DNA from: Isoetes taiwanensis
Taxonomy: Eukaryota > Streptophyta > Lycopodiopsida > Isoetales > Isoetaceae
NCBI GenBank assembly: GCA_021234155.1
Contig: JAJEKV010000040.1
Coordinates: 5,357,229-5,421,228, forward strand
Direction of reading: 5' to 3'
Length of the DNA: 64,000 nt
Part shown: positions 31,850 through 33,004 of the stretch, piece by piece
How positions within the stretch are numbered: position 1 is the first letter of the stretch
Layout: each line of letters starts with the position of its first letter
The notes under the pieces: model-generated
Databases searched by the model: none
What the model was told of the DNA's origin: nothing
What the model saw: the letters and a program-made list of their open reading frames with translations, nothing else
Program-made: the position numbers and the translations under genes

Positions 31850-33004
31850 CTAATTGTGGTCCCTCCAAATCCTCCTTGCCAAGGCCAAATCCTTTGACAT
31901 GATGGTAACCCTCTTAGCATGGATAGCGCAGAGGTTGGCATCCCCAAAAAGGGCCACCAAGTAGTCTTCGACAGCCTCTTAGAGGGCGAGCATAGCAAAG
32001 GTTTGGAACCGAAAGTCGGTCCGATACTCCTGTGCTATCTCTCGGACCAGGCACTGGAAGGGAAGCTTCCGTAACAGAAGTTATGTAGTCTTTTGGTACT
32101 TCCGGATCTCCCTCAATGCCACGGTACCGGGTCTAAACCTATGAGGCTTCCGTTGCTGAGGCGGCTTCTTGGGAAGGGTCTTGCCCCCTGACACGGGGCA
32201 AGGTCGCGCAGCGTCCACGCGATCCTGCCAGCGGGCAGAGCTCGTGGCCTTGCCAAGACTCTCCACCGCTTGGAGCTTCTCCTTGTAGGTGCTCCCCGGC
32301 TTGCATGCTGTGCTTTTCTGCCTCTGTTTGACAATGGGAACTTCAGTTTGGTCCGGAGCCCGTTGCATATTATGCTCCTCATCTTGCTGAGCCTCGTGCT
32401 GGGTCTCTCGGTCAGCATTTTGCTTGGCGGCTTGCTCGACTCGTTGCTGCTTTGCCCGTTCAGCTTCTTGTTGTGCGATGTATGCAGCCATATGCTCTTC
32501 TATCTCGGCGAGGCGACATGCGTTAACCCTCCTCATCAACTCAATATTGTATTTGTCCGGCCTAGCTTGCATGTCCTGCTGAATGAGTTGCACGAGGTCC
32601 ACGGTGAGGTATGCTGGAATATCGTCTCAACTCCTCGTCAAAGTGGTAGGGGAAGGTAAATGGGATTCCCGGCAACTATGGCATGCCCCTCGCACAGGTA
32701 GATATGCTCCCTACATCGGGACTTTGGTTCTCCTCGCTCCATCTCCCATGCGTCGTCAGTTATGGCTAGCCCTAGGTTGCTTCACCAAGGTATGGCTCCC
32801 CTAGGGCATTCAAATTCACCAAGAAGTGCTCCTCAGGTCGAAAATGGGATAAGGCACCCTATCTCCAGTGGCGAACTGCTTAACAAGCTCTGTCAAGAGG
32901 AGCCCGAGCTTTTTCAGATTCTTGGCGAGTTGGTCACCAAGCTCGGCAAAGATTTGGCTCATGTTGAGGTTATAATAACTAACAAACTGCCGGGTACGGG
33001 CCAT
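31850..33004 (-). pseudogene. Histone H3-like fold with long N-terminal extension
   Basis: The frame from about 32,140 down to 31,850 reads PHRFRPGTVALREIRKYQKT, then RKLPFQCLVREIAQEYRTDF, then NLCAIHAKRVTIM and LARRI, ending RDHN. About three quarters of the ~98 fold residues match canonical H3 as I recall it. Two in-frame TAA codons (32,081-32,083; 31,979-31,981) sit where H3 has Glu and Gln. There is no frameshift across the fold. Upstream in the same frame are a KQRQKSTACKPG tail reminiscent of ARKSTGGKAP, a Gln/Glu/Ala-rich coiled-coil-like region (IAQQEAERAKQQRVEQAAKQ), and more. Further upstream and frame-shifted, a segment opens MARTRQFV at 33,004, with the H3-like start MART(R/K)Q in an ACCATGG context. 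The loop 1 length is that of canonical H3, not of a typical CENH3. Intact expression is unlikely. Confidence 0.75.

Follow-up and report, generated by a model that had tools for sequence, protein, structure and literature searches.

Whether a retrotransposon can supply, as a regular part of its own coding equipment, a variant of a core histone is the question raised by a stretch of 64,000 nucleotides from Isoetes taiwanensis (contig JAJEKV010000040.1, positions 5,357,229 to 5,421,228; hereafter the window, numbered from its first letter), in which a broken gene ending in a histone H3 fold lies within a dead long terminal repeat (LTR) retrotransposon. The answer is to be sought in related elements of the same genome. 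With a probability of roughly 0.93, their sequences point to a chromovirus family in which a gene upstream of gag regularly specifies a fusion protein, typically 400-460 amino acids long, of an N-terminal domain (N-domain), a linker, a basic region and an H3 fold, with the window element as an old dead member. That a retrotransposon might carry its own H3 variant had been put forward from the letters of the window alone (the original prediction), and in the copies examined the idea is supported.

The window gene, orfH3, extends from start codon to stop over 31850-33004 of the minus strand, with its terminal TAG at 31852-31850. The 99 codons of the fold (31853-32149, minus strand) are readable, just as predicted, in a single frame free of indels and interrupted by two TAA codons, at 32083-32081 and 31981-31979. 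With the stops entered as X, the fold matches the Pfam histone model at E 6.3e-36; its best match among solved structures is H3.3 (E 6.6e-44), and 74 of its 99 residues are identical to host H3. In this dead copy R69 is lost and the chaperone site reads FAML. Later arrival of the fold, proposed from its lack of frameshifts, is rejected: neutral decay since insertion would leave 1.4 indels (P(0)=0.24) and 0.65 stops (P(>=2)=0.14), so that the absence of an indel is not unusual. Before the fold, the end of the N-domain, a Gln/Glu-rich linker and the basic region (32150-32626, minus strand) are open and 31% identical to other copies (E 5e-20). The Gln/Glu-rich stretch, also foreseen in the original prediction, shares one open frame with the start of the fold (32626-32084) and has the periodicity of coding sequence, GC at the three codon positions being 0.67/0.40/0.62 in the extension versus 0.43/0.43/0.41 in the leader; by codon-position GC there is coding character in the window's second open reading frame (ORF2) as well, and none in the leader. 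The remnant of the N-domain (32627-33004, minus strand; E 5e-9 against other copies) loses its frame after about residue 57. Because it aligns from residue 1 with other copies (for the six best of 18, identity is 35-40%), the MARTRQ that had been picked out there coincides with the point at which translation starts in the family. Other copies begin MPRFKL.. or MEEV../METP.. here, so MARTRQ is rejected as a remnant of an H3 tail and the likeness is most simply due to chance.

The window's own assembly (1.658 Gb, 1110 contigs) was searched with the Pfam histone model, yielding 8705 loose candidates. Among the 150 that were scored, fifteen stand apart at 164 bits or more, and the eight of them that were read are all canonical H3; many of the other 135 are in open frames of up to 494 amino acids. 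From these 135, 20 copies (L009-L028), each with the 10 kb around it, were picked for an open frame of at least 400 amino acids. All 20 specify, from the first Met, a protein of 352-464 amino acids with an uninterrupted H3 fold, and the layout is shared: a conserved N-domain of about 196 residues, a linker of 41-101 residues with 30-39% Gln plus Glu, a basic region with 27-33% Lys plus Arg, and the fold. (In L016 and L018 the first Met is inside the N-domain, and in L014 the reading of the fold continues past the usual stop.) Counting same-strand hits only, the fusion is followed downstream by ORF2 in 19 of the 20, by ORF3 in 14, by gag capsid in 15, by protease in 12, and by reverse transcriptase and RNase H in 11 each. 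The primer-binding site TGGTATCAGAGC, which we take to be of the tRNA-iMet type, is present exactly in 14 copies and with one mismatch in another.

The N-domain of one copy, used as query in its turn, gave 2841 loose candidates and 150 scored matches, all at E<=2.1e-90; by hand count, 40 of the 150 combine a stop-free match with an open frame of 400 amino acids or more. From an every-seventh series of these 150, 12 copies were sampled by the N-domain alone. Though they were taken without regard to H3, it follows the N-domain in 11 of the 12; their primer-binding site is exact in six, has one mismatch in one and was not found in five. An extension never accompanied by H3 elsewhere, which would have told against the original prediction, is accordingly not what the genome holds. 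Multiple copies of extension plus H3 are found at the same place inside LTR pairs, some of them intact and with a ratio of non-synonymous to synonymous substitution (dN/dS, omega) below 1, in the copies examined.

Selection was assessed with the MG+F3X4 codon model in IQ-TREE, using copies in which a stop-free match spanned 85% or more of the query. The H3 fold has an omega of 0.030 (20 copies); the values are 0.126 for the N-domain (17), 0.136 for ORF2 (six) and 0.092 for ORF3 (five), and within gag-pol 0.024 for gag capsid (eight), 0.058 for protease (six), 0.024 for reverse transcriptase (four) and 0.027 for RNase H (nine). Pairwise counts give similar medians of dN/dS, 0.036 for the fold over 141 pairs (a further 48 are saturated) and 0.127 for the N-domain over 83 pairs (a further 70 are saturated). 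Purifying selection acts strongly on the fold, at a level comparable to that of gag capsid and reverse transcriptase. Nucleotide similarity of the fold to the two host genes used for comparison is 67-72%, and the longest shared in-register run is 17 nucleotides; the likeness to host protein is thus held by selection and does not stem from either gene by recent capture or conversion. Distances in the N-domain track those in H3 (Mantel rho 0.85, 0 of 2000 permutations), also inside the larger subfamily (0.65). A tree of 31 rows, two of them host rows and with no other outgroup, groups the element and window H3s together across a branch that separates them from the host rows (100/99), and two element subfamilies are distinguished (92/97 and 99/98); the window row belongs to neither and its long branch makes its place unsure. 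Codon statistics and the matching divergence of both ends show orfH3 to be old in the lineage and kept by selection, and we infer its origin from a host H3 gene.

In sequence, the fold of the selected protein remains close to host H3. The Pfam model PF00125 matches the fold at 2.8e-42 and 3.3e-42 in two copies; across the 20, it is identical to host H3 at 81-85 of 99 positions, 63 of them being the same as host in every copy. Thirteen positions presumed to make histone or DNA contacts (C110, H113, R116, D123, L126, R129, I130, R42, R49, R63, R69, R72 and R83) are each kept in 19 or 20 of the 20 copies, except R42, which is Lys in three; C110, H113, R116, D123, L126, R129, R69, R72 and R83 are invariant. 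The chaperone site (87-90) reads TAVL or SAVL in the eight host genes; 15 of the 17 larger-subfamily copies have FAIL there, and all three of the smaller subfamily have HAIL. The ARKS motif of K9 and K27 is in none of the 20 copies, and some form of xRKS is in four. Within the 60 residues before the fold in L009-L028 there is a conserved basic stretch that may be a rearranged H3 tail; in the larger subfamily it ends H-P-x-T-G-G-K-S..KPRKPHR or in close variants, and by eye the P-x-T-G-G motif aligns about equally well to the K9 and K27 regions. CENH3 has a longer loop 1 and a divergent fold. On this trait identity with it is rejected, the element fold aligning to canonical H3 over 99 positions without a gap, and so with no loop insertion, in all 20 copies. 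Host H3 has Tyr41 in all eight genes read and Phe41 is found in 13 of the 17 larger-subfamily element copies. Ferns are reported to be the first plants in which H3.1 has Phe41 (PMC5809374), and Tyr41 in the host genes would fit a lycophyte; the fern host implied in the original prediction is not supported.

For the whole element, four copies were followed downstream, and an LTR pair with 5-bp target duplications, one of them imperfect, was found in three. These are L025 (LTRs 96.7% identical, Kimura two-parameter distance (K2P) 0.035, duplication GTGGC/GTGGC), L026 (92.0%, K2P 0.077, ACTGC/ACCGC) and, from the second subfamily, L027 (90.1%, K2P 0.104, AACTC/AACTC), each about 13.2 kb long including, for L027, 1.5 kb unread. 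The polypurine tract of the family elements is AAGGAGGGGAGAA. The gag-pol of L025 matches Ty3_capsid, RVP_2, RVT_1, RNase H and the integrase zinc domain; the piece downstream of L026 (L030) matches rve at 1.5e-7, just under the cut-off, SH3_Tf2-1, and Chromo PF00385 at 1.1e-9, and that downstream of L018 (L031) matches Chromo PF00385 at 7.8e-9. The order gag, protease, reverse transcriptase, RNase H, integrase is that of Ty3/gypsy and, given a chromodomain at the integrase C-terminus in two copies, the family is by its domain content a chromovirus (Ty3/gypsy with chromodomain). The Tcn1 clade uses self-priming instead of a tRNA primer-binding site (PMC6317226, in the sections available), and the tRNA-Met-type site speaks against membership of it. 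Among plant chromoviruses (Tekay, Reina, Galadriel, Tcn1, CRM and Chlamyvir, as portions of the same survey describe them) LTRs, a tRNA-Met-type primer-binding site, gag-protease-reverse transcriptase-RNase H-integrase, a chromodomain and a 5-bp target duplication are all shared with the present family, which differs in adding three ORFs between primer-binding site and gag, one of them the H3 fusion. The other two, ORF2 (about 450 amino acids) and ORF3 (about 150-170 amino acids), at oriented positions 4000-6200 of L009-L028, are selected and have no relative found. Pfam gave nothing convincing at E<=1 for the N-domain, ORF2 or ORF3, and a search of solved structures gave best E values of 0.03 for the N-domain and 1.2 for ORF2, neither convincing. 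About 60-70 nucleotides before the start of ORF2, most of the 14 copies listed, in both subfamilies, have ATTAGGGTTTCAT or close variants, a sequence that may act as start site or splice acceptor or may be telo-box-like.

Several observations weigh against the proposal of a chromovirus family regularly equipped with its own H3. The primer-binding site is not recognisable in five of the 20 copies, one of which, L027, has a damaged site of this type directly after its LTR. One N-domain-sampled copy, L036, has no detectable H3, part of its basic region being kept, and L018, the fourth copy followed downstream, gave a 155-bp match only and no clear 3′ LTR in the piece read. Choice by H3 score and open frame lowers omega: in eight N-domain-sampled copies with at least 70 fold residues free of stops (three of the eleven, which have a stop, were dropped) the value for the fold is 0.084 against 0.030, and for all 28 together it is 0.054. 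In the larger subfamily positions 60, 64, 86, 87, 102, 105 and 134 are unlike host, and normal nucleosome behavior is therefore not to be assumed. Finally, judged by eye against the cage residues of HP1, the chromodomain in L030 and L031 keeps one of three aromatic-cage residues, the Trp of KW, and because of this a link to reading of K9 methylation is not supported and assignment as a type I (H3K9me-reading) chromodomain is rejected. An incomplete cage is a likeness to type II chromodomains, for which the binding partner is given as unknown (PMC6317226, in part).

What the fusion may do for the element is a more tentative matter. By way of its conserved dimer and DNA contacts the H3 fold would pair with host H4, chaperones of the host would put the protein into nucleosomes, and the large N-domain would substitute for the normal H3 tail. 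The resulting nucleosomes, without ARKS sites for K9 and K27 marks, could then hold the chromatin of the element open to transcription, or could serve as a mark or landing site for its own integration machinery. As a whole this mechanism, read from sequence, has something just short of an even chance. That nucleosomes made by the element replace host H3 on its chromatin, refuse the K9 and K27 silencing marks and recruit the transposition machinery, the element in effect writing its own chromatin state, is a conjecture to be held a little more loosely still. The family offers a natural case of an H3 whose modifiable tail is exchanged for some 300 residues of other sequence, and, with its N-domain at no fewer than 150 places, it maintains this H3 by selection about as strong as that on its gag and polymerase. 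Whether a transposon fights silencing, or chooses sites, by supplying its own nucleosome part is now testable.

Two other roles for a selected protein deserve consideration. In one, the H3 part would anchor the N-domain in certain chromatin and the N-domain, by binding integrase or the particle, would steer insertion; the N-domain is itself selected (omega 0.126) and is fused to H3, and the element's chromodomain is without a full aromatic cage. Such a tether is nevertheless judged rather unlikely as the main function. In the other, the basic region and H3 would condense element RNA or cDNA in particles, resembling histone-based packaging in some DNA viruses, with which the 27-33% Lys plus Arg of the basic region and the conserved DNA contacts of the fold would agree. 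Packaging alone, however, has no need of the dimer-contact residues, which are conserved too, and the fusion is a separate ORF with no gag link seen, making this distinctly improbable.

Explanations that deny the element a stake in the gene fare worse. LTR elements do carry captured pieces of host genes and the window copy is broken, as would be expected of an H3 fragment taken up once and carried along with no role, but such passive capture is very hard to reconcile with purifying selection that constrains H3 about as strongly as gag capsid and reverse transcriptase, with possession of the gene in common by diverged lineages, or with the 40 stop-free long frames among the 150 scored N-domain matches. 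Scarcely more credible is that the gene really belongs to the host, as an H3 variant or CENH3, and has been taken up repeatedly by elements. A fold 81-85 of 99 like host H3 is in keeping with this; against it, element and window H3s stand together, separated by a well-supported branch from both host rows, the N-domain has diverged in step with H3, canonical H3 can be aligned to the fold without loop insertion, and no stand-alone host version was seen among the 150 scored matches of each search. The original prediction had also allowed that an unrelated H3 pseudogene had fallen into a transposon nest at this locus. The window is indeed such a nest, containing a LINE-like element, an LTR split by an insertion and a Helitron, but many elements that share its ORF2 and gag-pol have the gene in the corresponding position, and the chance of an unrelated pseudogene is next to negligible.

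With regard to precedent for a chromovirus-encoded H3 fusion, a word search of the open-access literature, with preprints and most subscription papers outside its scope, returned no retroelement-encoded core histone, and in the literature searched core histones in mobile or viral genomes had until now been confined to DNA viruses. The main text of a viral histone review (PMC9145170) gave no retrotransposon or retrovirus match to such a search. A survey of plant LTR elements has 314 groups of extra-ORF proteins in Ty3/gypsy, with a known domain in 21.4% of extra-ORF proteins; its text, as far as available, describes heterogeneous extra ORFs and names no histone, and its supplementary list might hold one (PMC6317226). 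Ty3/gypsy elements of orchids that have captured an AlkB RNA demethylase are likewise large LTR elements with a conserved, host-derived extra ORF, but are Ogre/Tat relatives with a tRNA-Arg primer-binding site and carry an enzyme, not a core histone (PMC9289625, in the part available). The single viral H3s of xenomavirus, phycodnavirus DSLPV1 and sylvanvirus, as the viral review presents them (PMC9145170), have a fold 73-87% like that of the possible host, in some cases a longer N-terminal tail, and a SAIL or TAIL chaperone site, thought to be fitted to host assembly, to compare with FAIL or HAIL here; they differ in belonging to DNA viruses and in tails longer by tens of residues versus about 300. 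Bracovirus H4 and nudivirus Orf1 (same source) also join a histone fold to an N-terminal extension, which in Orf1 is a long stretch without homology with the histone part at the end, but involve H4 or an H4-H3 doublet, again in DNA viruses. In a protein database the window extension had 107 candidates and window ORF2 4704, none at E<=1, and scanned viral and bacterial/archaeal contigs held no relative. The window H3 part had 7968 matches (proteins of 142-451 amino acids), and the 120 listed are H3-like, from many plants and animals, at 63-67% identity and in one case 75%; a long-tailed relative could be among them. Since the window extension is only about 31% identical to intact copies, the database negatives are weak with regard to absence from other species.

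The window element itself occupies about 35.05 to 10.44 kb of the minus strand, on which all of its parts lie. Self-blast and motif positions define the 5′ LTR (TG...CA; 33684-35047), 71% identical to that of L025 over 622 bp, and self-blast the two parts of the 3′ LTR (16012-16536 and 10444-11330), split by a 4.7-kb insertion (11331-16011, no strand assigned); the H3-like gene is thereby confirmed to be inside an LTR-bounded element. The pair has a K2P of 0.121 (125 mismatches in 1342 bases aligned by blast), slightly too high a value as the aligned pieces included some flank, and no target duplication is recognisable at the window element. The primer-binding site TGGTATCAGAGC (33671-33682) is one base past the 5′ LTR, and a polypurine tract (16537-16548) adjoins the 3′ LTR. 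After orfH3 come a broken ORF2, specific to the family (30281-31549; 39-62% to that of L025, E to 4e-48), broken gag (24094-25358), and broken protease, reverse transcriptase and RNase H (22228-24093), so that the predicted position of the gene, between primer-binding site and gag and on the strand of gag-pol, holds. Integrase, chromodomain and ORF3 were looked for in the window copy and not found, and a scan of Rfam at gathering score had no match.

Between ORF2 and gag is a nested LINE-like element (25650-29495, minus strand), its endonuclease recognised by Pfam and its remaining ORFs by eye; a (CT)n microsatellite flanks it at 25292-25675 and 29700-30070, as if it had inserted into the repeat. 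A Helitron-like element is on the plus strand at 48567-50960 and 51741-52277 (Helitron_like_N at E 7.8e-56 for 48567-50195, the rest by eye), and on the minus strand at 2149-5357 there are open frames of 707 and 261 amino acids, the larger with DUF7869, that are perhaps another mobile element. The chromovirus sits about 2 kb upstream of plus-strand exons at 37246-40466, which may belong to a gene for a PP2A scaffold (A) subunit.
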